Source: Okeania sp. KiyG1
Lineage (GTDB): Bacteria; Cyanobacteriota; Cyanobacteriia; Cyanobacteriales; Microcoleaceae
DNA length: 64,000 nucleotides
Reading direction: 5' to 3'
Assembly (NCBI RefSeq): GCF_014132355.1
Contig: NZ_BLZO01000184.1
Coordinates: 153,629 to 217,628 of the forward strand
In this document: piece after piece, positions 93 to 37,339 of the stretch
Layout of the letters: each line of letters opens with the position of its first letter
Numbering within the stretch: position 1 is the first letter of the stretch
Position numbers and translations under genes: made by a program
The notes under the pieces: generated by a model
What the model was told of the DNA's origin: nothing
Database searches by the model: none
Seen by the model: only the letters and a program-made list of their open reading frames with translations

Positions 93-113
93 TCCTAGGT
101 CATGCTGCGCAAA
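93..113 (+). repeat. PAL21 module inside transposase
   Basis: Twenty-one bases (TCCTAGGTCATGCTGCGC then AAA) interrupt an otherwise continuous transposase reading: GTT before and CGT after rejoin as valine-arginine. Being 21 bp it preserves the frame. Same module as at 6755, 7506, 13083, 13118, 21487, 22029, 31836, 33093 and 37121. Confidence 0.7.
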
Positions 114-189
114 CGTTATCAATGTTAATTGCCAAACTTAAAGTACCACGTCCAGTTAATATTAAACAACAAAAAGATGCCTTCAATAA

Positions 190-345
190 TTGATAATTGA
201 TAATGGATAATTGATAATTACCTCTCCCTAAAAGGAAGAGGATTGAATAAAAGGAAAATTTTTTCTTGTTTCCCCTTGAAAGGGGAGGCTTTAAACCTAA
301 ATTATTTAATTATTTAATTATTTAATTCTTAATTCTTCGGTAAAT
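190..345 (+). repeat. R1 double-palindrome repeat, copy 1
   Basis: AT-rich heptads, then ACCTCTCC..GGAAGAGGATTGA, GGAAAATTTTTTCTT, a CTTGAAAGGGGAGGC-type palindrome, TTTAAACCT and CTTCGGTAAA. The same order of blocks recurs at 6632, 11221 (reverse), 12478, 14540, 16578 (reverse), 21680, 34718 and 38600 (reverse). Here it splits the IS630 transposase between the reading ..QKDAF and KKLPELI... Confidence 0.75.
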
Positions 346-928
346 AACTTTTAAAAAAACTCCCAGAGTTAATTAAGTTTTTGTTAGATAAAAATCAAGA
401 AATTTTGAAATATGCTCATAAAATTCGTTATTGGTGTCAGGATGAAAGTCGTTTTGGGATGAAAACTGTTTCTGGACGAAAGGTAACTCTCCCTCGTAGT
501 AAAACCAATTGGAAAAGAACAATGGAAATTTTTATATAGATGGTTATATGGTTTAGTAGAGCCATTAACAGGGGAAAGCTTTTTCTTTGAATTTACTCAC
601 CTTAATAGTATTTGCAAATGAATTGTTTTTAGAATTATTTGCAGAGCAATTCAAAGATGAAATTCACATAATTCAGCTAGACAATGGTGGTTTACACAAA
701 GCTTTAAACTTAAATCTTCCTGAGAATATTATTTTATTGTTTCAACCACCATATAGTCCACAAATTAATCCCATAGAAAGATTATGGCAATACATTAAAG
801 AAGATTTTAAGTGGATTAATTTCGACAGTATAGAAGAGTTACAAAATGCTCTGACTAAGAGTTTAAATAAATTAACCCAAAAAGTAATATCTCAAATAAC
901 TGGCTGGGAATTTATTATCAATGCTTGA

Positions 929-1124
929 TCAATGGCCAATATTTAGCACTGCGATCGCATTTAAGTATCCAATATTTTCAAAGTGATTGCACTAAAGTAT
1001 TTGTAACATTCTTTTTTCACGCTTGGTATAATACACTACCTGTAGAGGGCGAATGCCATTCGCCCCTACTGACTCCTAAATAATTAAGATTAATATCATG
1101 CACTAATTCACCAATGCCAAAAAA
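929..1124. other. Intergenic, repeat ends only
   Basis: Holds a HIP1 site (about 953), the short palindrome GGGCGAATGCCATTCGCCC (about 1049) and one MITE-C right end ending ATTCACCAATGCC (about 1113) without a recognised left partner. No gene seen. Confidence 0.5.
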
Positions 1125-2123
1125 TTAACCGTGTTTTTTCAGCCAGCTAAACATAGCGCGCAAGTCTTTACCCACTTCTTCAACAGGGTGTTCTGCTTGT
1201 TGGCGACGCATGGCGGTAAATACAGGTTTGCCTGTTTGGTTTTCCATGACAAACTCGCGGGCAAATTGACCAGATTGAATTTCGCTTAAGATTTTCCGCA
1301 TCTCGGCACGAGTTTGGTCATTAACGATGCGAGGGCCACGAGTATAGTCGCCAAATTCAGCAGTATTGGAGATACTGTCGCGCATATTTGCCAGACCACC
1401 TTCAACAACAAGATCGACAATTAGTTTAACTTCGTGGAGACATTCAAAGTAAGCTAATTCTGGCTGATAACCTGCATTTACTAGAGTTTCAAACCCAGCT
1501 TTGATTAATTCACTCAGGCCACCACAGAGAACAGCTTGTTCGCCAAAGAGGTCAGTTTCGGTTTCTTCTCGGAAACTGGTTTCGAGGATACCTGCACGAG
1601 TACCACCTATACCTTTCGCATAAGCCATAGCGCGATCGCGTGCTTGACCAGAAGCATCTTGGAAGATGGCAAATAGACAAGGTACTCCTTCTCCTTGTTC
1701 ATAAGTGCGTCTGACTAAATGTCCTGGCCCTTTAGGGGCAACCATGACCACATCTACGTTTGATGGAGGAAGAATTTGACCAAAATGAATATTAAAGCCG
1801 TGGGCAAAAGCTAGAATTTTTCCTTCTGTGAGATTAGGTTCAATTTCGTTTTTATAGACAGTTTTCTGTACTTCGTCTGGCAAAAGAATCATAATTAGGT
1901 CTGCTTTTTCAGCAGCTTGGTCTACTGGGTAAACATCTAAACCTGCTTCTTTTGCTTTATGGGCAGACTTACTGCCTGGATATAGTCCTACAATTACTTT
2001 TGAGCCACTATCTTTGAGATTTAGGGCGTGAGCATGACCTTGGGAACCATAACCAATGATGGCAATAGTTTTGTCGTTTAAGATGTCCAGATTGGCATCG
2101 GAATCGTAGTACATTCTGGCCAT
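1125..2123 (-). CDS. ilvC: Ketol-acid reductoisomerase (NADP+)
   Basis: Second step of branched-chain amino acid synthesis: isomerises and reduces 2-acetolactate or 2-aceto-2-hydroxybutyrate with NADPH and Mg2+ (cytoplasm). The 332-residue product has the class I length. It starts [15 protein letters not shown] and carries the Rossmann fingerprint [13 protein letters not shown] (about 24-36), the [11 protein letters not shown] and [16 protein letters not shown] signatures, and the C-terminal Mg2+/knotted domain motifs [12 protein letters not shown] and [12 protein letters not shown](V)EGGL. The first ATG is taken as the start because the family begins here. No neighbour from the pathway is present; in cyanobacteria ilvC often stands alone. 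The family identification is very secure. Confidence 0.98.
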
Positions 2124-2495
2124 TGTTTTTGTCTCCTGTCAGCAACTATATATTATTTATGCAAAACTTCTATTGTATCAAATATCGGTAAAATTTTCTA
2201 CTCTACACCCTATAACCCAGGTAGTGGTGCATTGTCATGGTGGTTTATTTTGACTACTCCCCGGAGGTTAGTCACGGGGAAACAAGCGCAGATACTACGC
2301 AACAGGATAAATCCATGTTGCTCCGTCTATTCTTAGCTGACCAAAGATATACTCTTTGGGGACAATTTCCGCGGTGCCCCTACACAGTCGGCTTAAGTAG
2401 GGGCGTTAACGATAGTTATGCGCAAGCTTTCGGCCGGAAAGCTGACGCATAGCTGACGAATGGCGTCCCTACAGCTTTGCGGCTTACTTTTGTGA
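2124..2495. other. Intergenic with palindromic repeats upstream of ilvC
   Basis: The ilvC leader is followed by short inverted modules, for example CAAGCTTTCGGCCGGAAAGC around 2422 and a GTAGGGGCGTTAACG block. Open frames on the plus strand (2237-2452, 2477-2668) run through these repeats, have no recognisable sequence and were not called. No clear promoter was picked. Confidence 0.4.
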
Positions 2496-2708
2496 TTATA
2501 TTTGCAGCCCCATTACAGTCTGCATTAATACACCAATTACTACTACTCCTATACAAACCACGCTGTCTTGATGCAGTCGCTCATGGGGGAAACCCCCTTT
2601 GGCGGCGCTGCATCGCTTTATTCTTTTCGGTGATGGTTTCCAATCATTGGGTTTCTCACCATAATTAGGTAGATCGTCACCATCTAAAAATGAAGGGGCG
2701 AATGCCAT
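2496..2708 (-). pseudogene. Possible small membrane protein with a repeat spliced in
   Basis: Not recognised. The frame reads DGDDLPNYGEKPNDWKPSP, then KRIK, then a 16-residue stretch encoded by PAL49 (2568-2616), then a hydrophobic helix VVCIGVVVIGVLMQTVMGLQ and a stop. Removing 48 bp leaves a continuous ..KRIKDSVVCIGVVV.. reading, which suggests a genuine ~50-residue tail-anchored protein before the insertion. The apparent start lies inside another repeat (GGGGCGAATGGCATTCGCCCC), so the true N-terminus is lost or remodelled. It may be a pseudogene or an in-frame remodelled gene; this call is weak. Confidence 0.35.
2568..2616. repeat. PAL49 hairpin module, copy 1
   Basis: 49 bp with outer arms GATGCAG/CTGCATC and inner arms GGGGG-AAA-CCCCC. 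An essentially identical copy lies at 3895-3943 inside tnpB. Both copies interrupt coding-like sequence. Confidence 0.8.
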
Positions 2709-2865
2709 TCGCCCCTACAAGTATAACTTTCTTCTGTTTCTATAAATATTATTCCATATTCAGAGCATAACTGAGCTATTCTTTCTTTGAGTCTAGCTGT
2801 CGGAATTGGTACAAATACAGAAGTAATAATTAATTATTAATTATTAATTATTAATTATTAATTAT
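2709..2865. repeat. AT heptad repeat
   Basis: Tandem TTAATTA units at about 2828-2868 run into the 3' end of the pentapeptide-repeat gene. No gene seen in the rest. Confidence 0.6.
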
Positions 2866-3387
2866 TTAATATCCATCAGGTCCAATAGTAGTGTCATTGT
2901 GTTCTGCCATAGATAAATCAACTTTTTTAGCTCGAAATAAATTACACCATCCCAATTTAGCATTATTTAATTTTGCCTTCTCTAGATTAGCTTTTCTTAA
3001 ATCTGCGTGCCTTAAATCTGTGTCTGTGAGGTCTGCATTATATAAATTTGCACCTTGTAAATTGGCTCTATTCAAATTTGCACCACTCAGAATAGCATGA
3101 CGTAAATTAGCTCTCGATAGATTTCCTAGGGAAATATTTGTATTAGATAAGTTAGCTTGATAAAGTTTAATATCTCCCATTTCTACTTCTTGCAAATTAC
3201 ACCCTTTAAGATTAGCTTGATTCAAATTTGCATAAGGCATATAAGCTCTTGTTAAATCACTACCCTTTAAATTAATTCCTTCTAAATCAGCTTCAAACAA
3301 TTCAATATTACTCAAATCAATGCCACAAAATTCTCTTTGACCCTCCGCGTATCTTGCCAGTAATTCCTCTGCACTCATTTTCTCCAT
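2866..3387 (-). CDS. Pentapeptide-repeat protein
   Basis: 173 residues. After a short lead (MEKMSAEELLARYAEGQ) nearly the whole chain is tandem A(D/N)LXX pentapeptides, for example LSNTNISLGNLSRANLRHAI and LQGANLYNADLTDTDLRHAD, predicted to fold as a right-handed quadrilateral beta-helix. There is no signal peptide or membrane segment, so it is probably cytosolic. Function cannot be assigned; family members range from gyrase-mimicking proteins to structural adaptors. Two ATGs (codons 1 and 4) could start it. It is followed downstream by AT heptads and stands alone, with no operon partner. Confidence 0.85.
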   Translation of the reverse strand: MEKMSAEELLARYAEGQREFCGIDLSNIELFEADLEGINLKGSDLTRAYMPYANLNQANLKGCNLQEVEMGDIKLYQANLSNTNISLGNLSRANLRHAILSGANLNRANLQGANLYNADLTDTDLRHADLRKANLEKAKLNNAKLGWCNLFRAKKVDLSMAEHNDTTIGPDGY

Positions 3388-3555
3388 CTTAATATTTTTA
3401 TAACTACTTGATTAGCAGTTGATAATTATTATTTAATAAATAAATAATAAGTATTTATACTCAGCTTTTTTTATTAAGCTTAATATTAAGATGGCCTTAT
3501 AAAAATTACTGCGATTCTAATCCTTTTTTAAGATTTTTGACACTCCACGCACCTA
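3388..3555. other. Intergenic: pentapeptide-gene leader and IS right end
   Basis: AT-rich leader of the pentapeptide gene; 3535-3570 carries the TGACACTCC..GAGTGGATTCTTGG hairpin typical of the tnpB-side end of IS200/IS605 elements, where a guide (reRNA/omega) RNA would end. Whether that RNA is made is unknown. Confidence 0.45.
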
Positions 3556-4880
3556 TTAGCGAGTGGATTCTTGGTTTGCTGACGCAACGCTGCGCGAACA
3601 CTGACTCAAGTTGTCTTGACAGGTATTGCTACCAACCAAGATAGAGCTTAAATCTCCCCAAGCGTTAAGGTCTTCTGACCAACTTCCCCAATGCCCTTGG
3701 GTAGCTTTTTTAAGTATGTTTAATGCTGCCATTTTGTCTCTATCTTCAACGTATCCACAGGAACAAACATGAGTTCTAACTGATAAAGACTTCTTGATTA
3801 ATTGACCACAATTAAAGCATTCTTGACTGGTATAAGCGGGATTTACAGCAATAGTTAATCTACCGTATTTCATCCCAAAATACTCAATCCATTCTTGATG
3901 CAGTCGCTCATGGGGGAAACCCCCTTTGGCGGCGCTGCATCGCTTTTCTTAATTGCGACCAACCAGCATCATTAATACTTTTAGCTAGTTTCTTGTTTCG
4001 CACCAGGTTTTGACCTTTAAATCTAGCCTTCGGCAAGCCGCTTCGCGTCTACATAAGCGATCAAGTCGTTGGACTGAATTAAACGGAGTGCTAATCTTTT
4101 CGCAAACTCTTCTCGCTGCCTACTTACTTTTAAATGTCCCTTGGCGTACTTTCTTCTAGCCTTGATGTAGTTGTTAGACTGCTTTTTTCCTCTGTTAAAC
4201 TTCTTGGACTTTCTCTTGTTTAGTTTATTAAGACGCTTTTGTGCTTGGCGATAATATTTAGGAGGTTCTACAATATTTTGATTGCTATCAGCATAGAGGT
4301 ATTTTAAACCCATATCTAAACCTACACACTTTTTAGTAGGTTCTAATTGAGAAGTGATATCTCTGACATCAAGTTTTAACAATAACTGGACAAAGTAGCC
4401 ATCAGCACGTCTAACTATTCTTACTCGTTGAATTTGCCATTCTTGGAAATAAAATAAATCTCGACTACCTATTAACTTTAGTTCACCAATGTTTTTACCA
4501 TCGGTGAAAGTTATCCTCTTGGTATCTCGATTAAGTTTCCATCCTGACTTTTTCAACTCAACAGAGTGCGTCCGTTTAGCGTATTTAGGGTATCCCTTTT
4601 TGCCAGGAATATTGTTTTTGCAGTTATTGTAGAATTTAAGGATTGAAGTCCAGGTTCGTTCGCAAGCTTGTTGACAAGCCGTAGAGTTGAGGTCTTTGAC
4701 AAAAGAATATTCACTTCTTAATTGAGTCGTGTATTTATAAATATCCTGTTGTCCGACACCCTGATTATCTTCCCAGTATCTCAGGCATTTGTTCCGCACG
4801 AATTGGACTGTACGAATTGCCTCATCGATAGCTGAGTATTGGTGTTTTTTACCCCTAAGCTTGTACTCTAAAACAAACAT
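3556..4880 (-). pseudogene. tnpB: RNA-guided nuclease TnpB, disrupted
   Basis: The N-terminal part (4880-4023) begins MFVLEYKLRGKKHQYSAIDE and reaches RuvC-I (KKCVGLDMGLKYLYADS, catalytic Asp). It stops after LIAYVDAKRLAEG. The C-terminal part (3873-3556) has the zinc ribbon SQECFNCG..CSCG and RuvC-III DRDKMAALNILKK. Between them lie three lesions. A GC-rich palindrome at about 4025-4050 replaces the RuvC-II glutamate region (family reading ..YEDL). One base is missing in an A-run just after DLKVK. PAL49 is inserted at 3895-3943 between LRK and EWIEYFG. The protein is therefore dead as read. This is a clear case of small palindromes landing in a gene. Confidence 0.9.
3895..3943. repeat. PAL49 hairpin module, copy 2
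   Basis: Inserted in tnpB. Removing 49 bp restores ..SQLRK-EWIEYFGMKYGR.., the normal TnpB reading. The module itself also brings a TGA in the tnpB frame. Confidence 0.85.
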
Positions 4881-4948
4881 CTTGCGTTATTGACCTAAAA
4901 AATTAATCATCATAGCACAATAAAAGCTAGATTGACATAAATCTATCA

Positions 4949-4984
4949 AAAGCCGTCCTCCACTACGCTAAAGGACGGGGCTTT
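4949..4984. repeat. Subterminal hairpin of IS200/IS605-type element
   Basis: Inverted arms AAAGCCGTCCT and AGGACGGGGCTTT around CCACTACGCTAA. This sits at the 5' side of tnpB, the usual place for the left-end hairpin recognised by Y1 transposases. Confidence 0.5.
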
Positions 4985-5061
4985 CAACCCATATTTCCGG
5001 TAAAATTTTTATTCATAAATGTCAAAATTATAGTTATACCAAATAATACCTAACAAGAATT

Positions 5062-6597
5062 ATGACAGAAGTTAAACAATCCATCGCTCAACACTACCAT
5101 GAGCGGACAAAATACGACCCAGAAACAATAGGAAGTAAGAACCGCCAACTAGACTGGGAAACACAACCAATACCATTCAAAGAATATAAAGTTGGGACAA
5201 CTATTGACCTCAAACCCTATCTGCAAGAACAAATTAATCAAGAAAAAGATTTAGAAGAAGGAGAAAGGCTATCTAATTTATTTTTATGTAGCTATGGCTT
5301 AACTGGTAAAGTGGCAACAATGATGGGAAATCATTACTTAAGAGCTGCTCCCTCTGCTGGGGGTCTGTATCCTGCGGAGGTTTATTTAATTTCCCGTGGG
5401 ACACCTCTATTACCTGCCGGACTATACAATTATCAGGCCAAAACTCATTCCTTACTCAGATTTTGGGATAATAGAATCTGGCCAGAATTGCAAGATGCTT
5501 GTTTTTGGCATCCAGCTTTAGAAAATACAAAATTAGCGATCGCCATAACTACTATTTTCTATCGCTCTGCTTGGCGTTACGAAGACCGAGCATATAGAAG
5601 AATATTTTTAGATACAGGCCACTTACTAGGTAATATTGAATTAGCTTCTGCTTTCACTAACTACCGACCTCACCTAATTGGTGGGTTTACCGATGAAGCA
5701 GTAAATCAAATACTTTATCTAGATACTCAAGAAGAACAGGCGATCGCTATTGTTGCTCTGGCAGACCTACTAGATATTGAACAAAATCTCTCACAATGGG
5801 AAAGTGCTTTACCTTCTAGCACTCAAACAGATTATCCTCTGATTCCAGATGGCGAGCTGCTAAAATATTTACATCAAGCTGCTCACATCAACTCAAATTC
5901 TCCAAAAGTGCCTACCTGGAAAACAAGAGAAACTCCTGAATACTCAGAAGATAAATACAACTTTCCATTCTGTACAAAAGTCTCCACTGTCACTCCCTCT
6001 ATCTCATGGGGAAGAGACTTAGGATCTTTAAGAAAAACTATTCTCAAAAGACGCTCTACTCGGGAATATACTGGGGAACCAATTAGTTTAAAAGAACTAT
6101 TGGCCGTATTAGATTTTACCTATCAACCCCATCATTATATTAATCAAGGTTTAGATCGTAACCCCGATCATTTTGACCTGAGTTTAATCCAAACATTTAT
6201 TGCCGTTTCGGGAGTAGATGGTTTAGAAGAAGGTTGTTATTATTATGCTCCAGTAGCTCAAGAGTTACGACAAATTAGGTTTAAAAATTTCCGACAAGAG
6301 CTACATTATCTTTGCTTGGGTCAGGAATTAGGCAGAGATGCTGCTGTTGTACTATTTCATACTGCCGACCTCAAAAAAGCTGTAGCAAAATATGGCGATC
6401 GTGTTTACCGTTACCTTCATGCAGATGCAGGCCACCTTGGACAAAGACTAAATTTAGCAGCTATTTATCTTGATTTAGGTGTTAGTGGTATCGGTGGTTT
6501 CTTTGACGATCGCGTGAATGAAGTTTTAGGTATTCCTCTAGATGAAGCCGTTTTGTATATTTCTACTTTAGGAGCCACTTCAATAATTAATAATTAA
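5062..6597 (+). CDS. SagB/ThcOx-family FMN dehydrogenase, two nitroreductase domains
   Basis: 511 residues with tandem nitroreductase-fold domains. The N-terminal half (about 60-235) shows LRAAPSAGGLYPAEVYLISR and the Y(K/Q)A-rich core. The C-terminal half (about 325-510) shows RRSTREYTGEPISLKELLAVL and the HADAGHLGQRLNLAAIYLDLG..GIGGFFDD core. SagB-type enzymes are FMN oxidoreductases that oxidise azolines to azoles in RiPP pathways. Stand-alone cyanobacterial homologues, as here with no cyclodehydratase or precursor nearby, have no proven substrate. The ATG start follows ACAAGAATT. The last codons and the stop lie in a TTAATAA heptad array (6584-6631), so the repeat has supplied the C-terminus IINN-stop. 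Confidence 0.85.
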   Translation: MTEVKQSIAQHYHERTKYDPETIGSKNRQLDWETQPIPFKEYKVGTTIDLKPYLQEQINQEKDLEEGERLSNLFLCSYGLTGKVATMMGNHYLRAAPSAGGLYPAEVYLISRGTPLLPAGLYNYQAKTHSLLRFWDNRIWPELQDACFWHPALENTKLAIAITTIFYRSAWRYEDRAYRRIFLDTGHLLGNIELASAFTNYRPHLIGGFTDEAVNQILYLDTQEEQAIAIVALADLLDIEQNLSQWESALPSSTQTDYPLIPDGELLKYLHQAAHINSNSPKVPTWKTRETPEYSEDKYNFPFCTKVSTVTPSISWGRDLGSLRKTILKRRSTREYTGEPISLKELLAVLDFTYQPHHYINQGLDRNPDHFDLSLIQTFIAVSGVDGLEEGCYYYAPVAQELRQIRFKNFRQELHYLCLGQELGRDAAVVLFHTADLKKAVAKYGDRVYRYLHADAGHLGQRLNLAAIYLDLGVSGIGGFFDDRVNEVLGIPLDEAVLYISTLGATSIINN

Positions 6598-6631
6598 TAA
6601 TTAATAATTAATAATTAATAATTAATAATTA
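6584..6631. repeat. TTAATAA heptanucleotide array
   Basis: About seven AATAATT/TTAATAA units begin inside the last codons of the SagB-like gene and run into an R1 repeat. Similar heptads precede or follow R1 copies at 12440-12480, 16673-16720 and 34690-34720. Confidence 0.85.
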
Positions 6632-6754
6632 TTACCTCTCCTTGAAAATAAGAGGATTGACGCAAAAAGGAAAATTTTTTCTTCTCAGGACTTACGCACG
6701 GACACTAAATTCAGTGAGGGCGCCATTCGGAGCTTTGCGCTAGCAAATGCCATT

Positions 6755-6776
6755 TCCTAAGGTCATGCTCCGCAAA
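6755..6776 (+). repeat. PAL21 module (22-bp form)
   Basis: TCCTAAGGTCATGCTCCGC then AAA, placed exactly between ATGCCATT and CGCCCCTAC, a palindrome that is uninterrupted elsewhere (1049, 2699, 38780). Confidence 0.7.
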
Positions 6777-6816
6777 CGCCCCTACAGATGGCGTTTTCAA
6801 GGTGAAGCATGCGTAA

Positions 6817-7065
6817 TATAGAATCCGGTTATATAGTATAGCGCTGCGCGCAGGCAACAGGCAACAGGCAACAGGCAACAGGGGGAATAAAAAGCTTATC
6901 AGATAAGACTTTTAGCTATTGGACACCTCCTGCAATTTGTAAATATGCCAGCGCACATTGCTATATATGTTGATAATTTCTTAAATTACTTCAAACCTTT
7001 AATCTCCCCTACTCCCCCACTCCCCCACTCCCAACTATACAATAACTATTCAACCGGATTCTATA
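6817..7065. mobile_element. MITE-A, copy 1 (nested in MITE-D)
   Basis: Ends TATAGAATCCGGTT and AACCGGATTCTATA, TAA on both sides as a 3-bp target duplication. Carries four GGCAACA units (about 6852-6881) and C-rich heptads; no transposase. A small ORF at 6945-7172 crosses its right end and was not called. Confidence 0.85.
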
Positions 7066-7477: not shown

Positions 7478-7505
7478 TGGAACATAGCTGTTTTGAATCT
7501 AGCTA

Positions 7506-7527
7506 TTTGCGGAGCATGACAAACGGA
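7506..7527 (-). repeat. PAL21 module
   Basis: TTTGCGGAGCATGACAAAC then GGA, between AGCTAT and AATGCTGATAGC; same contact sequences as in MITE-B ends. Confidence 0.55.
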
Positions 7528-12929: not shown

Positions 12930-13147
12930 GTAAGCATTCAGCAGTCAGCTATCAGCTATCAGCTATTAACTTATTATCTTAGAAGGAGAATTCAAAATGA
13001 TGTTTATGCAGCATTCACTAGGAAAGAAAAAGGTAACAAGCTAACTTTACTATATTACATTACGCTCAAAAGCTGAATGCTGTTTCGGAGCATGACAAAC
13101 GAAAATGCTAATAGCTGTTTGCGCAGCATTCCGCAGGAAATGCTTAC
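12930..13147. mobile_element. MITE-B, copy 1
   Basis: GTAAGCATTCAGC at the left, AATGCTTAC at the right, exact 8-bp duplication CTTGTCTT (12922-12929 and 13148-13155). Inside are AGCTATC tandem units and two PAL21 modules (13083-13102, 13118-13138). Lies about 90 bp 3' of the ABC permease gene. Confidence 0.9.
13118..13138 (-). repeat. PAL21 module in MITE-B right end
   Basis: TTTGCGCAGCATTCCGCAGG then A, placed inside CTG-AATGCTTAC. A shorter variant at 13083-13102 (TTTCGGAGCATGACAAACGA) is in the same element. Confidence 0.65.
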
Positions 13148-21441: not shown

Positions 21442-21586
21442 CGGGACTTACGCAAAATATCAAATTAGACCCCATCTGTAGGGGCGTTTGCGGAGCATGA
21501 CCTTAGGAAATGGCATTTAACCTCCCCATCTGTAGGGGCGAATGGTATTCGCCCTCCCCATAAGTAGAGTCTCTGCGTAAGTCCTG
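21442..21586. mobile_element. MITE-D, copy 2
   Basis: CGGGACTTACGCA at the left, TGCGTAAGTCCTG at the right (12 of 13 matched). TAGAT occurs immediately outside both ends (21437-21441, 21587-21591), giving a 5-bp duplication. Inside, GTAGGGGCG palindromes with a PAL21 copy (21487-21508). Confidence 0.75.
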
Positions 21587-22028: not shown

Positions 22029-22049
22029 TCCTTGGTCATGCTGCGCAAA
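22029..22049 (+). repeat. PAL21 module upstream of HEAT-repeat gene
   Basis: TCCTTGGTCATGCTGCGC then AAA, preceded by CTTT and followed by CAGCTAA. About 90 bp before the gene start, so it may add structure to the leader. Confidence 0.6.
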
Positions 22050-29595: not shown

Positions 29596-31323
29596 TTAAT
29601 ACTTCCGTTCCTGTGGCTCAAACATTGTAACTGCCACAGGTCGATAACCAATATCAATTCCTGCTAACGAATAATATGCCAAAGTATGCTGTAAAAACCT
29701 CTCATCATTTCGTTGCGGAAAATCTTCCCGACTGTGAGCACCCCGACTTTCCTGACGACTCAACGCCGAACTTAAAATTGTTTCCCCCACCACAATAATA
29801 CTCCGCAACTCCAACGCCTCAATAACCTCCGTATTCCACAACTTACCCTTATCATCCAAATAAACCTCCTGATATTGCTCCTGCAATTGCTTCAATTTTT
29901 CCAACCCTTCCTGCATCACATTCTGAGAACGAAATACACCGCAATGCTCAGTCATCGTATCCTGAAACTGCTGCCGTAAAAAATCAATACGATATTCTCC
30001 CGAACGGTCCAACAACCCTTTAATTTGTTCTCGTGCCTCCTGAATATAAGGTTCTTCCTCAATATTCGGCAATTTGCGACCTTCCACAAACTCCGCGATC
30101 GCTGCCCCAGTCCGTCGCCCATAAACCACACATTCCAACAAAGAATTACTTCCCAAACGGTTCGCCCCATGCACCGAAACACAAGCACATTCACCCGCAG
30201 CAAACAACCCATCCACCAAAACATCAGCACTAGCAAAAACTCTACCATCAGTATTAGTAGGAATGCCGCCCATAGAATAATGAGCAGTGGGACGAACTGG
30301 CATCGGTTCGTTCACCGCATCAATACCTACAAGACGATGTGCTTCTTCCCAAGCAAACGGTACTCGACTCATAATTTTTTCCCGCCCCATGTGACTCAGA
30401 TCGAGATAAACAAACGGACCACCCGCAGTACCATCCATATTAATTCCGCGACCAGCACTAATTTCCAAAGTAATAGCACGGGAGGTAATATCGCGGGGTG
30501 CCAACTCCATGCGACTAGGAGCATAATTTTTCATAAAGCGATCGCCTTCACTATTAATCAGATAAGCACCCTCACCGCGCACCGCTTCAGAAATCAAAAC
30601 TCCTGCTGGATATAAACCTGTTGGGTGAAACTGTACAAACTCCATATCTTGCAGAGGAAGGCCAATCATTGCTGCCATTGCCAAACCGTCCCCAGTAGAA
30701 GCATAATCATTGGAAGTGGTATTAAATACCCGACCATAACCACCAGTGGCAAACATTACTGCTTTTGCTCGCAGGACAACAATTTCACCATCCAGAATAT
30801 GGTACATAACCACGCCTTTTGCCTGACCATCTTCGAGTATCAGGCGCATTACATACCATTCCTGATAAATATGCACCCCATAACGTCGGAGGTTATTTAC
30901 CAATTCATGCAAAATAGCGTGACCAGTTTTATCCGCAGCGTAACAAGTCCGGTTGTGGGAGTGACCGCCAAAAGCACGTTGAGCAATGCGACCATCTGGC
31001 AACCGAGAAAATAATACCCCTAAATGTTCGAGGTCAATAATTACATCTGGTGCTTCTTTTGCCAAAATTTCTACTGCATCCTGGTCAGCTAGATAGTCGG
31101 AACCTTTGACTGTATCAAAAGCATGAGCTTTCCAACTATCTTCAGGGTCTACATTTTGGAGAGAAGCTGCTATTCCACCTTGAGCTGCTACCGAGTGGGA
31201 ACGAATGGGGTGAGTTTTGGCAACAACTGCCACATTTAAGCTAGGATTTTTGCGAGCTATTTCTACAGCAGCGCGGCTACCTGCTAGACCGCCACCTACT
31301 ATTATTACGTCGTGTTCTAACAT
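29596..31323 (-). CDS. sdhA: Succinate dehydrogenase/fumarate reductase flavoprotein subunit
   Basis: 575 residues, full length. FAD dinucleotide-binding start VIVGGGLAGSRAAVEIA; FAD-linkage loop SHSVAAQGGIAASL; active site HPTGLYPAGVLISEAVRGEG; substrate and catalytic region RPTAHYSMGGIPTNTDGRVF; FAD-C RLGSNSLLECVVYGRRTGA; C-terminal R(E)SRGAHSREDFPQRND. It oxidises succinate to fumarate and, with SdhB, feeds the plastoquinone pool in cyanobacteria. sdhB is not adjacent, as is usual in the phylum. Starts at ATG 31323. GC content is higher than the surrounding spacer, as expected for a conserved gene. Confidence 0.97.
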   Translation of the reverse strand: MLEHDVIIVGGGLAGSRAAVEIARKNPSLNVAVVAKTHPIRSHSVAAQGGIAASLQNVDPEDSWKAHAFDTVKGSDYLADQDAVEILAKEAPDVIIDLEHLGVLFSRLPDGRIAQRAFGGHSHNRTCYAADKTGHAILHELVNNLRRYGVHIYQEWYVMRLILEDGQAKGVVMYHILDGEIVVLRAKAVMFATGGYGRVFNTTSNDYASTGDGLAMAAMIGLPLQDMEFVQFHPTGLYPAGVLISEAVRGEGAYLINSEGDRFMKNYAPSRMELAPRDITSRAITLEISAGRGINMDGTAGGPFVYLDLSHMGREKIMSRVPFAWEEAHRLVGIDAVNEPMPVRPTAHYSMGGIPTNTDGRVFASADVLVDGLFAAGECACVSVHGANRLGSNSLLECVVYGRRTGAAIAEFVEGRKLPNIEEEPYIQEAREQIKGLLDRSGEYRIDFLRQQFQDTMTEHCGVFRSQNVMQEGLEKLKQLQEQYQEVYLDDKGKLWNTEVIEALELRSIIVVGETILSSALSRQESRGAHSREDFPQRNDERFLQHTLAYYSLAGIDIGYRPVAVTMFEPQERKY

Positions 31324-31413
31324 TAAGTAAATCTCTAATAGTTTTATGCTTTTATTATTTTATACCAAATAGACATCTCCAGAAAAAAGGGAGTAGGGAG
31401 TAGGGGAAAATAA

Positions 31414-31592
31414 TATCAAATCCGGTAGCATCGGTGTAATTAGATGGGGAGATGGGGGACCCACCCCTAACCCCTCCCTGGAGGGGAATGTGGGGATGGG
31501 GACCCACCCTAACCCTCCCTGGAGGGGAGAAATATTTGGTAATCGTTGAAGATGGAACATTTTTTACGTGCCGAATTAAACGGATTTGATAT
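31414..31592. mobile_element. MITE-A, copy 11
   Basis: TATCAAATCCGGTAGCATCG at the left, GCCGAATTAAACGGATTTG..ATA at the right, TAA duplicated. Same subtype as 8030 and 21785; CCCACCCTAACCCTCC cassettes inside. Confidence 0.85.
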
Positions 31593-31726
31593 AATTGATA
31601 TATCTAGTTCGATAATTGATTTTATTTTTTATTTATTATTAGAGATGTCTAGTTTAAAAAAGGTATTTATATCATTTTCTGACGGGTCATTTCATTTATC
31701 ATTTATCAGTACCTTTTTCTGAGATA

Positions 31727-31765
31727 AAAAACCCACCTGTGTCATTAAGCAGGCAGGTTTTTAAC
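31727..31765 (-). terminator. Probable intrinsic terminator of the 32068-32379 gene
   Basis: AAAAACCCACCTG and CAGGCAGGTTTTT arms around a TGTCATTAAG loop, with the 3' arm running into T's on either strand. Points at transcripts from the minus-strand gene 300 bp away; a MITE-B (31827-32053) now separates gene and terminator. Confidence 0.55.
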
Positions 31766-31826
31766 TTTTTAAGTACCTCGAATTAAATGAGGACTTTAGT
31801 TTTCGGTGTTGCTCAATTCAATGTCA

Positions 31827-32053
31827 GTAAGCATTTCCTGCGGACTGCTGCGCAAACAGCTATTAGCAGTCAGCTCTTAGCTTTTTAATGAATTAACCAA
31901 GTATTTGCTTAACTTCTACTACATTTTTGAACAAAGAATTGAAGCACAAGAACAACAAGCCTAAATTGTCTACTAAAGGTAATGAAGCTGAAGTCCGCAG
32001 TTCCGACCTTATGAGGCTAGCTGATAGCTGACTGCTGACCGCTGTTTGCTTAC
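31827..32053. mobile_element. MITE-B, copy 2
   Basis: GTAAGCATT at the left, GTTTGCTTAC at the right, flanks CAATGTCA and CAAAGTCA (7 of 8 match). PAL21 at 31836-31856 in the left end. Begins 14 bp after the stop of the neighbouring gene. Confidence 0.85.
31836..31856 (+). repeat. PAL21 module in MITE-B left end
   Basis: TCCTGCGGACTGCTGCGC then AAA splits GTAAGCATT-CAGC, the end sequence that is continuous in copies at 12930, 32866 and 43714. Confidence 0.75.
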
Positions 32054-32067
32054 CAAAGTCAAAACAT

Positions 32068-32379
32068 TTAGCCTAGAGAAGTTGCTGGTTGCTGACCAGA
32101 CATTGACGTTTGAGACTCTTCTTCTTCGTTAGGTTCTACTGAAAGTACTTCAATATGATTTAATAAGGTCGTTACAAAAGCAAAAACTAGGAAGGGTAGA
32201 GACAAAACCACGATTAAAGCAATAGCTCCTAGAGCATAGACTTGGCTACTGCTAGTCCAAAGGGCAATTCCTCCAGCTATACTCAAGAATACCACTATTA
32301 ACCAAACAATAATTTGGCCATAAATGTCGCCGAAAGTGAGTGTGCATTGGATACGATATTTTTGGAGATTATTCATCAT
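32068..32379 (-). CDS. Small two-TM membrane protein
   Basis: 103 residues, family not named. A soluble start MMNNLQKYRIQCTLTFGDIY is followed by two TM helices, about 21-42 (GQIIVWLIVVFLSIAGGIAL) and 48-72 (YALGAIALIVVLSLPFLVFA). The tail is acidic and low-complexity (EPNEEEESQTSMSGQQPATS). Proteins of this shape are conserved among cyanobacteria without function. It starts at one of two adjacent ATGs. Its 3' end is followed at once by a MITE-B, which separates it from its probable terminator. Confidence 0.7.
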   Translation of the reverse strand: MMNNLQKYRIQCTLTFGDIYGQIIVWLIVVFLSIAGGIALWTSSSQVYALGAIALIVVLSLPFLVFAFVTTLLNHIEVLSVEPNEEEESQTSMSGQQPATSLG

Positions 32380-32865
32380 TTTTACTTCGTTACATTACTT
32401 CAATTTTTAGGTTAGACGTATTGTCAAACCACAGTAATTTATAGGTTAGACCAACTGTCAAACTAGAGTAAAATTTATTACGATCAAAATCGTAATTGTT
32501 ACAACACTTTACAGTTTTTCACTGTAAAATAATATAGTTGTTACAAAAGTAACAATTAAATCTTTTTTATCTTTTTTATCTACATTTTTCGGCGTTGGTG
32601 AAAAGAGGTATGAGGGGTTGGTGAAAACAGGTATGATTTTCGTGCTTAGGTAACAGGGAATAGGGAATAGGTAGGGACGTTGTATATAACGTCCCTACAG
32701 ATTATTTCGTTTACGGCTCGCCCAAATATCTTAATTCTTATGTTGATTCACCAATGCCAGGAAAAGAATATCTAAAGTTAGAAGAAGGAAGAGGTTATTT
32801 TAGATTTAAATATTCTATTTATGATCTTTTTCTTTCTACCATCTTCCTTCTTCCAAAGCTGATAT
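32380..32865. other. Leader of small membrane-protein gene; MITE-C-like end pair
   Basis: A duplicated 33-bp unit with GTTAGAC..TTGTCAAAC..AGTAA (about 32411-32470), then a GGCGTTGGTG..TTCACCAATGCC pair (32591-32758) resembling MITE-C but without a matching duplication. TAGGGACGTTGTATATAACG palindrome inside. Confidence 0.5.
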
Positions 32866-33122
32866 GTAAGCATTCAGCTATTAGCTATCAGCTATCAGCC
32901 AAAAGACTTACTCTTTAAGAGCAGTGTTTAAATTAACAACTGACTTTAAGGTCAAGGGAAGCAACTTTTGTAGTAAGACAATTAAATATTGCTTTTATCG
33001 TAAACTAAAAGCAATAGCTGTTAACATAGTTCCGACCATAGGAGGCTAGCTGAAGTCCGCAGTTCCGACCATAGGAGGATGGCTGACGGCTGTTTGCGGA
33101 GCATTCCGGAGGAAATGCTTAC
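32866..33122. mobile_element. MITE-B, copy 3
   Basis: GTAAGCATTCAGC at the left, AAATGCTTAC at the right, exact 8-bp duplication GCTGATAT (32858-32865 and 33123-33130). PAL21 at 33093-33113 in the right end. Ends 12 bp before the stop codon of the TPR gene. Interior shared with copy 37112 (TTTTGTAGTAAGACAATTA). Confidence 0.95.
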
Positions 33123-33133
33123 GCTGATATTAA

Positions 33134-34282
33134 TTAATCTTCCAATTCCGTCATAATAGTTTCCACTTTTTCTTTACCTTCATAATTATTCTGTTTCTCA
33201 AACAATTTTAAAGCCGTTTCAAAAGACTTTCTGGCTTCTCGATCGCGCTCTCGACGGTGAAGAGCTAACCCCATTTTATAATGAGCATCTGCATTATCGG
33301 GATTTTTCTTAATTACTTGCCGATACATAATTATTGCTTGTAAATAATCCTGACTTTCTAAAAGTATCTCTGCTGCAGCAAACCTAGCTTCTACTAGATC
33401 GGGATTAGCATAAGCAGCTCTTTGATAAAATTTCAAAGCAGCTTGGGGATTATTTTGTGCTTGATAAATTTCCGCAATTTGAAACTGAATCTCTCCATTT
33501 CGAGGTCCTAGACGAGAAGCTAATTCCAGGGCAGCTAAACCACCATTAATATCTCCAGTAGATAATAAAGCAGTTCCTAACTTGATTTGCATTCCTGCAT
33601 TTCTCGGAGATAATCTAACCGCTTCTCGAAGTGCTTGTAATGCTTCAGGAAAACGTTCTTGTTTTAATAATGCTAAACCCATTGAAGCATAAGCTTCAGC
33701 ATTATTAGAATCAGACTGAATTGCTACTTGATATGCAACGATCGCCTCATTGTATCTTTCTAGGCGAAACAATGCAGCACCTAATCCTAAATGAGCATTA
33801 ACGTTATTGCGGTCCAGTAAAGAAGCACGGCGATAAGCTTCAACTGCAGCTGGATAGTTTTCTAACTTAGCCATACTATACCCCAAACCATATTGAAAAT
33901 CTGCTTTATGAGGTTCAATAGCGATCGCCTGTTGATAAAACTGACTTGCAGCTTGAAAATTTCCTTGGACTGCCTCTAAATAAGCAATACCAGAATATAT
34001 TTTTGCATTTTTTGGGTCTAAACGTGCGGCCTGTTGATATATTATTACCGCTTGTTGGTATTTACCCGCATCCGCTAGCGCTCTTCCTTGGCGTAGTAGT
34101 TTGTCTAAGTTGGAATTGACAGATTGATTTTGAGCCAATAATTTGACTCCACAACCAGGAAAAATACCTATATTTATCCTAGATGTTTCTTGACAAGTAA
34201 CCCCATAGGCAATAGAAGGAATAGTGGCCGTTATTGTGGCCACTACTAAACTACTAAATATTGATACTGTTTTTTTGTACAC
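33134..34282 (-). CDS. Exported TPR-repeat protein
   Basis: 382 residues. The N-terminal signal (MYKKTVSIFSSLVVATITAT..SIAYGV) is followed by a short Cys-containing linker. Nine to ten tetratricopeptide repeats start near residue 58 (LDKLLRQGRALADAGKYQQA) and end near 370. Canonical repeats include AKIYSGIAYLEAVQGNFQAA, AHLGLGAALFRLERYNEAIV and AHYKMGLALHRRERDREARK. A TPR solenoid in the periplasm or thylakoid lumen usually acts as an assembly adaptor; no partner is visible. Starts at ATG 34282. The MITE-B 12 bp downstream probably forms the transcript 3' end. Confidence 0.88.
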   Translation of the reverse strand: MYKKTVSIFSSLVVATITATIPSIAYGVTCQETSRINIGIFPGCGVKLLAQNQSVNSNLDKLLRQGRALADAGKYQQAVIIYQQAARLDPKNAKIYSGIAYLEAVQGNFQAASQFYQQAIAIEPHKADFQYGLGYSMAKLENYPAAVEAYRRASLLDRNNVNAHLGLGAALFRLERYNEAIVAYQVAIQSDSNNAEAYASMGLALLKQERFPEALQALREAVRLSPRNAGMQIKLGTALLSTGDINGGLAALELASRLGPRNGEIQFQIAEIYQAQNNPQAALKFYQRAAYANPDLVEARFAAAEILLESQDYLQAIIMYRQVIKKNPDNADAHYKMGLALHRRERDREARKSFETALKLFEKQNNYEGKEKVETIMTELED

Positions 34283-35074
34283 GGCCAGTCTGAAATATTA
34301 AGTGTTCGTAGAAATTATTAATCATAGCACCGCTTTGACATCTTCTCCGGCCTAAAGGGGCGGAGAAAAAACCGAACCTTAGTTCCTCGACGGGTTGATG
34401 TTTTGCGGGTTCAGAGCTTCCGCTAATACTGGGTACTGCACCCACCCCTCTTTCTCCCCCACATTCCCCTCCTGGGAGGGGCTAGGGTGGGTCCCCCATC
34501 TCCCCACATTCCCCTCCTGGGAGGGGAGGGGCTAGGGTGGTTCCCCCATCCCCCCATATTGCTAGTGACAATGAAAATCTTCTGAATGTCTACTTCTGCT
34601 TGAATATCTTTAAGAATAGGGAGGGCTAAATTTTTAGGACCATACACTGAGGATTGAATATACAGACCCACCGACTATCGGTATCAGTTCAACAATTAAT
34701 AATTAATAATTAATAATTAATAATTACCTCTCCTTTAAAACGGATAGGATTGACTAATCATGAAAATTTTTCTTCTCTTGGTAGATACGCCACTATTATT
34801 CCCTCCATACTTTTTTCATCACACTTGATTTCCAAATTCCAGATAAAAACGCTATATTTTTTTCAAAATACAAATACAGTCACCCCTATATTCTGCTATT
34901 TATGGGAATTGCAAAATAAATTAAGAAGTTAGAAAATTTAAGATAATTCTCAGCAAGAATGCAATACAAACCGCAAGAATTAGAAATACAAACAAATATT
35001 TAGCACTTACTATCTAATTTAAGCTCTCATCCGAAATTTAACGGAGAGATAAATAATTTGATTGGGAAAAAATA
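34283..35074. other. Spacer with IS605-type end and R1 fragment
   Basis: 34334-34420 reads TTGACATCTTCTCCGGCCTA..GGGCGGAGAAAA..CGACGGGTTGATG, the subterminal sequence of an IS200/IS605 element without any gene. Then C-rich CCTCCTGGGAGGGG cassettes. The minus-strand reading SSVYGPKNLALPILKDIQAE at 34560-34680 may be a gene relic. R1 fragment with heptads at 34690-34775. The final ~150 bp precede the spondin gene, with a TAACGGAGAGAT Shine-Dalgarno-like site at 35040. Confidence 0.5.
34334..34420. mobile_element. Orphan IS200/IS605-type end
   Basis: TTCTCCGGCC..GGGGCGGAGAA hairpin followed by CCTTAGTTCCTCGACGGGTT. Sequence-level resemblance to tnpB-element ends; no tnpA or tnpB nearby. Confidence 0.4.
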
Positions 35075-35902
35075 ATGAATATAAATAGTAAGACTTGGCT
35101 AAATATTCGTGGAGCGATCGCTACAGCAATAGCGGTAACTTCTACCTTTGCTATGACATCTACAGCAACAGCAGCAAGATTAAAAGTTACAGTAGAAAAT
35201 GTTGCCCCCACTAATGGTTTCTTTTTCTCTCCATTATGGGTAGGTTTTCACGATGGCAACTTCGACATTTTTGACTTAGACCAACCAGCACCCGCATATC
35301 TCGAAGCATTAGCAGAAGATGCTAATACAGGACCCATCACCACTGCTTTTGCTAATAGTGGCGCAGGCCAGACTCAAGCTACAATATTAGGCCCAACAGG
35401 CCCATTTCAGGTGCTTACTGCTGGCGATCGCGCTTCTATGACATTTACTCTAGATGGCAGTCTAGCTAGCAGTCGCTATTTCAGTTATGGAGCAATGGGT
35501 TTGCCAAGTAACGATGCTTTTATTGCTAACGAAAACCCACTAGGGATAAGAGTTTTTGATGAAGAGGGCAACTTCTTGGGTGCTGATTTTATTGTTACTG
35601 GCGATCGAGTGTGGGATGCAGGTACAGAGGTCAATGATGAAGTTCCAGGAAATACTGCAGCTCTTGCTCAAGCAGCTCCTAACACAGGTGTTGATGAAAA
35701 TGGAGTTGTTAAATTTCACCCTGGTTTTCTCGAAGGTGGTAATATTCTAGCAGCAGCACCTAATGGTGATTTTACTGCTCCAGATTATGAGATCGCACGG
35801 ATAACTATTGAATCAGTACCTGAACCTACAACTACTTTAGGATTATTTGCTTTTGGTGGGTTTTTATTACTGGGAAATTTGTTCCAGAAATCTTTTAAAT
35901 AG
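35075..35902 (+). CDS. Spondin-domain protein with PEP-CTERM anchor
   Basis: 275 residues. Signal peptide with AFAMTSTATAA (about 20-33). A spondin_N-type domain follows, starting LKVTVENVAPTNGFFFSPLW and VGFHDGNFDIFDLDQPAP, with ALAEDANTGP and PNTGVDENGVVKFHPGF, which has Ca2+-binding-like acidic loops. The C-terminus is VPEPTTTLGLFAFGGFLLLG then a basic end (FQKSFK), the PEP-CTERM sorting signal recognised by exosortase. It is expected to be exported and processed into the outer layer or EPS. No exosortase is in the window. Starts at ATG 35075 after GATTGGGAAAAAATA. Confidence 0.9.
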   Translation: MNINSKTWLNIRGAIATAIAVTSTFAMTSTATAARLKVTVENVAPTNGFFFSPLWVGFHDGNFDIFDLDQPAPAYLEALAEDANTGPITTAFANSGAGQTQATILGPTGPFQVLTAGDRASMTFTLDGSLASSRYFSYGAMGLPSNDAFIANENPLGIRVFDEEGNFLGADFIVTGDRVWDAGTEVNDEVPGNTAALAQAAPNTGVDENGVVKFHPGFLEGGNILAAAPNGDFTAPDYEIARITIESVPEPTTTLGLFAFGGFLLLGNLFQKSFK

Positions 35903-36093
35903 AGGGTTTGTATTAGACATCTCCGGAAAAGAGGGAGTAGGGAGTAGGGAGTAGGGAGTAGGGAAGAAATTGAAAAAGCAAGGGAGTAGAGAGTAGCTAG
36001 TTAACGATCTAAGTACAAAAATTGGGATAATCTATTTTCTGCTATTCCCTAAGTAAATCCCGATAGGTATTCCTTTCAAGTTCATTCTTCTCC
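35903..36093. other. Spacer with GGGAGTA heptads
   Basis: TTAGACATCTCCGGAAAAGA then four GGGAGTA units; same outer TAGACATCTCC motif as 31368, 36931 and (inverse) 37018. Nothing else seen. Confidence 0.5.
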
Positions 36094-36579
36094 CTAATTT
36101 TCCCCTGCTAAAGTCAAAACCTGCTCATAAAGCTTTACTGAAATTCTCGTCCCCTTTACCTGCATCTCATTCAAAATATCCTTAACACTTTCCAACAAAC
36201 CCCGACGCTTTGCTAACAATAAAATTCCCACAGTACCAATTAAAGGTAACTTTCTAGCCATAGCAACTTTACGCGCTGCCTTTTCATCAATCAACAACTG
36301 AGAAGCTCCAATCTCTTCAGCTAAAGCAATAGCTTCAGATTCTCCTAAATGTAAATTAAAAGACTTTTGTAACTCCTCAACTAGCTGCTGATTATTTACT
36401 GTTACAACCTCCAACCAAGACAAGTTTTGTACAAATTTCGCGACTGGATGCGTTCCTTTTTGTAATTCATTAAAAACACCTTGCGGAATCACAACTTTAC
36501 CAAAAATTTGAGGCAATAAATCAAGATGTTTAACCTTAGCTAGCTCACTAATTGGTGTAGTATCAGAAACAATAATCAT
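36094..36579 (-). CDS. DUF3368 PIN-like toxin
   Basis: 161 residues. The PIN fold is indicated by the N-terminal acidic residue in MIIVSDTTPISELAKVKHLD, LHLGESEAIALAEEIGASQL (second acidic cluster) and LLIDEKAARKVAMARKLPLI (third). DUF3368 proteins are predicted RNases of type II toxin-antitoxin pairs. It starts one base after the stop of the UPF0175 gene (36580), a tight operon with the antitoxin first. All acidic positions seem present, so it is probably active. Its last codons give LTLAGEN. Confidence 0.88.
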   Translation of the reverse strand: MIIVSDTTPISELAKVKHLDLLPQIFGKVVIPQGVFNELQKGTHPVAKFVQNLSWLEVVTVNNQQLVEELQKSFNLHLGESEAIALAEEIGASQLLIDEKAARKVAMARKLPLIGTVGILLLAKRRGLLESVKDILNEMQVKGTRISVKLYEQVLTLAGEN

Positions 36580-36870
36580 TTAAGAAACTTGCTGATTTAA
36601 AATTAATTCGGCTTCTTCGACTTCTTGACGTAATTCCTCCAAATCTTGCGAATCATCAAAAATAGAAATCCCCCATTTATTCATCATTTCAATTATTTCA
36701 AAACGATTTACACCAAGAATTTGTGCAGCTCGGCCACTACTAATTTCTCCTACTTCTAATAAAGCCATTACATATCCCTCTTTCGCTTTTTGTAAAGCTT
36801 TTTCTCGAACTTCAGCTGAAACCTGAATATTTTCCAACCCTTCATCGGAAATTGTTAAAGCCATTTTCAA
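36580..36870 (-). CDS. UPF0175 family antitoxin
   Basis: 96 residues. The HTH-like core VALLEVGEISSGRAAQILGV followed by NRFEIIEMMNKWGI is typical of UPF0175, the DNA-binding antitoxin next to DUF3368 PIN toxins. The start ATG at 36870 (MKMALTISDEGLENIQVSAE) is preceded by AGGAGATTTTGAA on the minus strand, a good Shine-Dalgarno. First gene of a two-gene operon. Expected autorepression by the pair. Confidence 0.88.
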   Translation of the reverse strand: MKMALTISDEGLENIQVSAEVREKALQKAKEGYVMALLEVGEISSGRAAQILGVNRFEIIEMMNKWGISIFDDSQDLEELRQEVEEAELILNQQVS

Positions 36871-37111
36871 AATCTCCTAACTCTACAGTTTTATTTTATC
36901 TTTAAACCAGTTAACTCAACATTACCATAGTATTAGACATCTCCAGAAAAGAGGCAATAGGGAACAGGGAGAAATAATTGATAATTTATAGATAAAAATT
37001 TATTTTATTTTTGATTTTTGGAGATGTCTATGAGTGACAAAAAAACTCCCTATTCTTCCCTAGTAACTTCTCTATTATTTATAACTATTTAACCGGAAAT
37101 GATATAATATA
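36871..37111. other. Leader of TA operon plus MITE-A right end
   Basis: TAGACATCTCCAGAAAAGAG at 36931 and GGAGATGTCTATGAG at 37018 form an inverted pair. AACCGGAAATGATATAA at 37091 is a lone MITE-A-type right end. The next bases begin MITE-B copy 4. Confidence 0.5.
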
Positions 37112-37339
37112 GTAAGCATTTCCTGCGGAATGCTGCGCAAACAGCTATTAGCTGTCAGCTATCAGTAACAAGACTCTCTCATATAGGAAAGTGTTTAAAT
37201 TAATATAGACTTTAAGGGCAAGGGAGCTAACTTTTGTAGTAAGACAATTAATAAATCTTTTATCCAAAACTAAAAGCAATAGCTGTTAACGCAGTTCCTC
37301 CAGATGAGGCTAGCTGATGGCTGACGGCTGAATGCTTAG
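37112..37339. mobile_element. MITE-B, copy 4
   Basis: GTAAGCATT at the left, GAATGCTTAG at the right, flanks ATAATATA/ATAACATC (6 of 8). PAL21 at 37121-37141. Ends 11 bp before the stop codon of the DUF488 gene. Confidence 0.85.
37121..37141 (+). repeat. PAL21 module in MITE-B
   Basis: TCCTGCGGAATGCTGCGC then AAA, same site as in copy 31836. Confidence 0.75.

Follow-up and report, generated by a model that had tools for sequence, protein, structure and literature searches.

The window analysed here, 64,000 nt of the genome of the cyanobacterium Okeania sp. KiyG1 (positions 153,629 to 217,628 of contig NZ_BLZO01000184.1), carries multiple copies of PAL21, a repeat unit of about 21 nt that is inserted into other repeats, among them the ends of the miniature inverted-repeat transposable element (MITE) MITE-B, and into a degenerate transposase stretch. 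The strict form of the unit is TT[TCC N6-10 TGCTNCGCAAA]C. The module is present at all ten places where the first-pass annotation had located it, namely, in the strict form at eight, as a variant at 7506 and as a degenerate copy at 13083 (a vertical bar marks the point of insertion; G and L numbers denote genomes and loci, respectively):

93..113, plus strand: PAL21 insert, 21 nt, AGGTCA type, in a degenerate IS630-like transposase stretch; the same 21 nt are absent from the G004 relative
6755..6776, plus strand: PAL21 insert, 22 nt, AAGGTCA type, in a GCCATT|CGCCCC palindrome; syntenic empty site in G005 (L202:17440)
7506..7527, minus strand: PAL21-like insert, 22 nt, GTTTGTCA type, next base T, not C; from sequence read-out
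13083..13102, minus strand: degenerate PAL21 copy, ~20 nt, adjoining the copy at 13118; from sequence read-out
13118..13138, minus strand: PAL21 insert, 21 nt, in a MITE-B end (GTAAGCATT|CAGC); strict form
21487..21508, minus strand: PAL21 insert, 22 nt, AAGGTCA type, in a GCCATT|CGCCCC palindrome; empty site in G004 (L197:1809)
22029..22049, plus strand: PAL21 insert, 21 nt, TGGTCA type; strict form
31836..31856, plus strand: PAL21 insert, 21 nt, in a MITE-B end; strict form, with an unlike 23-nt sequence at this place in G004
33093..33113, minus strand: PAL21 insert, 21 nt, in a MITE-B end; strict form
37121..37141, plus strand: PAL21 insert, 21 nt, in a MITE-B end; strict form

Genome-wide (10.98 Mb, 198 contigs), the exact core ATGCTGCGCAAA occurs 524 times (266 + 258) and the reversed pattern not once; within the window, the core ATGCTSCGCAAA, with at most 2 mismatches allowed, has 18 occurrences, against 7.98 +/- 3.06 expected, a count that none of the 100 shuffles reaches. 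Chance origin of the repeats is thereby ruled out. Among the 101 strict copies in an 856-kb sample of the same genome (the window plus L009-L048), 83 are 21 nt long, 12 are 22 nt and 6 are 23 nt, so that the fixed, frame-preserving length of 21 nt initially proposed applies to most copies, but not to the rest. The idea that a multiple of three keeps frames is weak in any case: only 8 of the 215 distinct copies are flanked on both sides by open frames of 210 nt, compared to 1533 of 4000 random TT|C sites, and because of this difference, we conclude that copies within genes are rare or removed. The transposase stretch at the beginning of the window (1-1033), the longest frame of which matches Pfam DDE_3, a domain of IS630-type transposases, contains several more indels besides the module. 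The gap opposite the insert at 93 in the G004 relative is exactly 21 nt and is accompanied by more indels and a changed base just past the gap; however, restoration of the reading frame by removal of the insert is not confirmed, the joined flanks being still full of stop codons.

Filled sites, empty sites and a common target

To compare filled and empty sites, we used 229 strict copies (226 distinct) from 196 partly overlapping loci (1.97 Mb in total), setting aside the Nostoc loci, the first eight loci and a locus that duplicates the window, and matched the flanks with at most 4 mismatches per 24 bases on each side. For 39 of the 229 copies (38 of the 226 distinct ones), there is an empty counterpart with the same flanks and nothing between them; 17 of these are own-genome copies, which belong to 6 host clusters. 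Across all pair hits, the matched flanks enclose the strict module 110 times, nothing 73 times, and one base and two bases once each; the remaining 59 hits enclose sequences of other lengths, 33 of them of 20-23 nt. In the window itself, the sites at 6755 and 21487 (22 nt each) are vacant at the matching places of G005 and G004, respectively; hosts with and without the module are thus real, as originally noted. Altogether, three of the ten window sites match a relative minus just 21 or 22 bases, and no orthologous empty counterpart of the other sites was present among the loci fetched. The empty sites contain no duplicated bases, that is, target duplication is not seen.

Filled and empty pairs alone cannot tell insertion from exact loss, but because many hosts share one target rule, we read them as insertions. 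Both the empty counterparts and the junctions of other stem families described below lend good support to clean insertion of a small, fixed unit: PAL21 is a real, very small mobile element that inserts cleanly into other sequences. In two comparisons (31836 in the window versus L196:8522, and L030:8362 versus L199), an unlike unit of similar length occupies the relative's place, which suggests, from the sequences, that units may replace one another or that a single site may be used repeatedly.

The target rule emerged from grouping 139 looser copies by their flanks. Single linkage, under which shared heptamer repeats may chain unrelated hosts, yields 24 host clusters by both flanks, 72 by the left flank and 42 by the right flank. 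Of the 24 cluster representatives, 23 have T at position -1 and 20 have T at -2; on the other side, 21 have C at +1 and 23 have A or G at +2. Units thus go into TT|C when a purine comes next, and in one orientation to this site, a sharper version of the ATT/CAG or ATT/CGC preference given in the first-pass annotation. Integron-like recombination (a G|TT cut), considered since the modules end in AA|C, was discarded on reading the other junction, which does not fit.

The largest both-flank clusters encompass 88 and 22 of the 139 copies and correspond to host repeats, namely, MITE-B ends (GTAAGCATT|CAGC) and a CCTCT-type palindrome; with 88 copies in one such cluster, a large share of the copy number is probably due to passenger amplification with the host repeat. 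Common descent from one older element, the outcome that had been named as fatal to independent insertion, accordingly probably accounts for a part of the copies, but the number of host clusters (24, or 72 by the left flank) rules out a single ancestral host as the full explanation. The hosts include, besides MITE-B ends, CAGCTAT-type heptamers and PAL21 itself, in the self-nested copies at L015:1110 and L042:13441. Heptamer tandem repeats (CAGTTAT, AATAATT, AAGTCAG and others) and G+C-rich palindromes are generally abundant in L009-L048 and the window (for example, at L043:3843).

Two small hairpins and their distribution

The typical PAL21 unit reads TCC-TNC-GGA-A-TGC-TSC-GCA-AA, which can be generalised as X3-TNC-X3'-A-TGC-TNC-GCA-AA, that is, two small hairpins in tandem. 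The last T of the host pairs with the A after GGA, giving a TTCC/GGAA stem that is followed by a TGC/GCA stem, and the loops, which are T..C on one strand, are G..A on the other. In hairpin 2 (NGC-TNC-GCN'), the outer pair is T-A, C-G, A-T or, rarely, G-C. A different pairing, TGCG/CGCA over an 8-nt loop, which is the best consensus fold according to folding programs, was rejected: it is abolished by the TAC and TCC variants of the loop, which are frequent, whereas the TTCC/GGAA stem survives. When hairpin 2 is fixed as TNC and hairpin 1 is left free, the loop of the latter is TNC in 24 of the 39 distinct triloops and TNNC in 16 of the 23 distinct tetraloops, compared to a chance expectation of 1 in 16 for a T..C loop under equal base frequencies. 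The complements of the TNNC loops are GTCA, GTTA, GATA, GCCA, GGCA, GACA and GCTA.

Other stem families have like junctions, for example, T|TGC-TAAC-GCA-A-AGC-TCC-GCT-AA|C and T|TGCG-CTC-CGCA-A-GGC-TAC-GCC-AA|C, and yet another one, T|ATCC-TAAC-GGAT-A-AGC-TCC-GCT-AA|C, sits inside the loop of a GTAG-type repetitive extragenic palindrome (REP; L251). Some of the counterparts with other stems show a mismatch at the junction, and a CCTCC family fits the shape, but its left junction replaces T. Other micro-modules in the own-genome loci and the window, such as TGCTACGCA-TAACTACGTTAACG, also seem to be made of like hairpins with TNC loops.

A search of plasmids with the PAL21 consensus produced weak matches only, two of them in Nostoc, and these led to the Nostoc units. 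We searched 13 Nostoc and Trichormus plasmid stretches (630 kb) for the layout T|X loop X' A NNN loop NNN' AA|C, with both loops left free. Both loops turned out to be T..C in 16 of the 18 matches (6 stem pairs) in these plasmids and in 86 of the 108 matches (8 different stem pairs) in the own-genome sample, but in none of the 14 matches that six Markov-4 controls yielded altogether; because of this contrast, we consider the shape, rather than the sequence, to be the shared property. The length of double-T..C matches is exactly 21 nt in 14 of the 16 Nostoc/Trichormus cases and in 68 of the 86 own ones. The Nostoc/Trichormus stems are CTC/GGC, CTC/CGC, TCC/CGC, GTC/CGC, CTCC/CGC and GCC/CGC, and 15 of the 16 double-T..C matches are preceded by TT. 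A layout-free scan for distinct double-T..C tandem pairs (with a triloop plus those with a tetraloop in hairpin 1) detected 9 + 7 in the own genome, 9 + 0 in Nostoc and 0-2 in each control. The folding programs do choose the double hairpin for the Nostoc unit. One of the Nostoc plasmids contains a 120-nt stretch annotated as an Erm(K) resistance gene (L237:23853-23972), which looks too short for a whole gene.

The sequence GGAATGCTSCGCAAAC is found at 441 places in the own genome and is missing from all 385 further genomes in a sample taken evenly across the phylum, which holds no other member of the genus; TTTCCTNNGGNNATGCTSCGCAAAC is present in 8 of 40 genomes, six of which make up the entire genus in this set (the own genome plus five more), and the remaining two belong to a single other genus of the family. 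Among the 80 stretches listed, out of at least 100, in a scan of the named collection, 71 come from Okeania, Hydrocoleum CS-953, Trichodesmium MAG_R03 or a Microcoleaceae MAG (metagenome-assembled genome), and 9 are single hits in unrelated bacteria. By the longest alignments of own DNA, identity is 93.7-94.8% to three Okeania genomes, 81.6 and 90.6% to two others, 88.6% (94.0% over 1002 nt) to Hydrocoleum CS-953, and at most 87.0% to Trichodesmium.

A covariance model was built from nine units, with rows picked for pairing, so that its pairing agreement is not independent evidence. In a phylum survey of 146 genomes (E <= 0.1, ~54 candidates scored per genome), 36 match the model, including the own genome with 57 matches. 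In family f18, probably Nostocaceae, each of the 17 matching genomes has 8 to 63 matches, and at least one genome (G086) has none; elsewhere in the phylum, G147 has 25 weak matches, G043 has 14, G149 has 7, and the rest have 1 to 3. Among the 41 genomes of the own family, with at most 150 candidates scored per genome, the 11 richest have 64 to 150 matches each; two others reach 21 and 11, and the remaining 28 stay at 0 to 8.

Related elements and possible modes of movement

The closest parallel to PAL21 appears to be provided by the small dispersed repeats (SDRs) SDR1-8 of Nostoc, which Elhai and colleagues (2008) are said to have described as dispersed, mobile units of 21-27 nt. These units reportedly nest in heptamer repeats, mini-transposons and copies of themselves, and share, with little sequence similarity, a secondary structure with compensatory changes. 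PAL21 is similar in being 21-23 nt long and dispersed over 24 host clusters, in lying within CAGCTAT-type heptamers, MITE-B ends and its own copies, in its exact insertion, with empty sites for 39 of 229 copies, and in a common structure with paired changes, except for hairpin 1 of the GGTCA subtype. Because size, context, exactness and shared shape agree, we file PAL21 as a new SDR-kind family from a different cyanobacterial group, by its likeness to the reported properties of the SDRs. Additions of this analysis to that description would be the TT|C rule, the 21-nt layout as a fixed one, and the G..A reading of the loops. The suggestion of the first-pass annotation that an unknown micro-insertion mechanism is involved stands with respect to the mechanism, but the kind of element is not new, exact-insertion micro-repeats having reportedly been described in Nostoc already.

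REPs and the related REPIN elements, which are moved by REP-associated tyrosine transposases (RAYTs), are short structured hairpin repeats thought to move as single-stranded DNA. Like these, PAL21 is a short structured DNA repeat with hairpins; unlike them, it is an asymmetrical double hairpin of ~21 nt with T..C loops that is itself inserted within REPs, which serve as its hosts. By eye, the PAL21 copies carry no GTAG (or CGTC) foot tag, and GTAG is found only inside the complement strand where the loop is TAC. SDR5 is described as lying inside HIP1, between nucleotides 3 and 4 (PMC4390886), and one of the Nostoc double hairpins likewise splits a HIP1 site, as GCGAT|CGC (L193), whereas PAL21 targets TT|C followed by A or G, not HIP1. 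PAL21 differs from the Nostoc units examined here also in its stem sequences and in its host organisms, Okeania, Trichodesmium and Hydrocoleum. As with MITEs, the copies are non-coding and numerous; however, PAL21 has neither terminal inverted repeats nor target duplication, and is much smaller than the 70-300 bp given for MITEs (PMC3733652). Finally, the typical complement strand, with C-GNA-G or C-GNNA-G, resembles the GCGAAGC-type ultra-stable mini-hairpins, which are described from short synthetic DNA and aptamers (PMC4686876). A literature search for papers on GNA triloops found none.

With a probability of roughly 0.45, we favour the interpretation that PAL21 is one SDR-kind family of a superfamily of micro-mobile units of ~21-25 nt that move as single-stranded DNA; the single-stranded DNA intermediate is, as judged from the sequences, the preferred and likely reading. 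Such a mechanism would build on what is observed, namely, exact insertion at TT|C in a single orientation to the target and without target duplication; a unit of the form [X TN(N)C X'] A [NGC TNC GCN'] AA, whose first hairpin is completed by the last host T; and superfamily members that share shape, loops and ends but differ in stem sequences. The mobile form would be the strand with GNA or GNNA loops, folded into two unusually stable, nuclease-resistant mini-hairpins; DNA mini-hairpins of this kind closed by G-C pairs are credited with very high resistance to heat and nucleases (PMC4686876). A putative structure-recognising breaking-and-joining enzyme would then put the unit into a single-stranded G|AA site, for example, at a replication fork, and many copies probably multiplied later as passengers of MITE-B, GTAG-type REPs and heptamer tandem repeats. 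A broader and more tentative proposal is that these units form a structure-defined class, the smallest mobile DNA elements, spanning two cyanobacterial families, moving as single-stranded DNA and inserted by a dedicated enzyme; within it, only the two GN(N)A mini-hairpins, the 21-nt layout and the TT|C target would be conserved, and the stability of the mini-hairpins might be a survival device.

Several observations weigh against movement as single-stranded DNA. Of the two hairpins, only the second is preserved in the frequent GGTCA subtype. Folding programs favour other structures over the double hairpin for the PAL21 consensus, whichever strand is folded and whether as DNA or RNA, and likewise for the CCTCC type, and no fold is exceptional compared to shuffles. 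Single C-closed hairpins with GNA loops are only slightly more numerous than in the control (46 versus 40.7 distinct 4-bp stems, and 20 versus 13.3 distinct 5-bp stems), so that the signal lies in the tandem pairs. No enzyme for PAL21 movement was found among the Y1 and RAYT genes surveyed. Two further points favour RNA-mediated movement instead, in which a folded RNA unit would insert by reverse splicing or reverse transcription, as was reportedly proposed for SDRs by Elhai and colleagues, an alternative that we regard as rather unlikely though a serious competitor. The RNA loop motif UNAC fits 9 of the 16 distinct TNNC tetraloops on the first strand, and genic copies lean to the sense strand (7:1; 13:5, 9:2 and 6:0 in nested windows, p 0.014 to 0.005), a bias more readily explained by an RNA step or by selection than by DNA alone; there is no such lean in the Nostoc set (n = 19). 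The conserved structure with paired changes would serve RNA equally well. However, a stable RNA tetraloop on the complement strand would need GNRA, which is none of the seven complements of the TNNC types, and 207 of the 215 copies lie outside long open frames. The absence of Rfam families above the gathering score in the window also speaks against RNA, if weakly, given that SDRs may not be in Rfam.

The alternative that the units are mainly passengers, with a few insertions into MITE-B, CCTCT-type palindromes and RAYT-linked GTAG REPs subsequently multiplied by the host transposase, is unlikely as the principal explanation, although it agrees with the two large host clusters (88 and 22 of 139 copies) and with the surroundings of RAYT genes. 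Modules lie within TTGGGTT...AACCCAAC repeats near these genes, and at 7 of the 10 best RAYT loci, the module or its second hairpin is found within ~400 nt; in a set of 12 RAYT loci, 5 have a full module ending in A[AT]C within this distance, at least 3 of these modules being inside a GTTGGGTT REP, and 2 more have the second hairpin only. Amplification of this kind cannot make the first insertions, given 24 host clusters (72 by the left flank) and own empty sites in 6 clusters, and leaves the layout shared with the Nostoc plasmids unexplained. Direct movement of the modules by RAYT or another Y1 tyrosine transposase is improbable. The best-scoring RAYT group (at least 195 bits) is present in 7 of 11 module-rich compared to 3 of 30 other genomes, a difference uncorrected for kinship, with one of the three stop-interrupted; but RAYT-type genes (E <= 0.001) occur in 40 of the 41 family genomes, module-rich or poor alike, and 7 of the 24 Y1 matches in the own genome (5 distinct places, a raw count) have a module or double hairpin within ~1.5 kb. 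Moreover, the PAL21 foot lacks the GTAG tag, and the proximity to the best RAYT genes goes with the REP hosts; we rejected RAYT and Y1 as direct movers on these grounds. Absence of any mobility, with the pattern due to chance repeats or to a selective loss of just this unit, is hardly credible: any single empty/filled pair could be an exact deletion, but one unit in many hosts with one target rule, and 524 exact cores against 0 reversed ones, speak against it. Apart from these alternatives, several RAYT genes (L242-L251, for example, L247:1981-2106) are flanked by GTAGGTTGGGTT...AACCCAACA arrays, a clear GTAG-type REP set, and some of these REPs carry PAL21-class units in the loop.

At ~21 nt, these elements are close to the lower size limit for anything mobile, and we know of no enzyme for mobile elements of this size. 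The TT|C target, the 21-nt two-hairpin layout, the T..C/G..A loops and the free stems unite several repeat families in one testable system, and this common rule allows a direct test of DNA versus RNA. The same two-hairpin design is found also in a distant cyanobacterial group.

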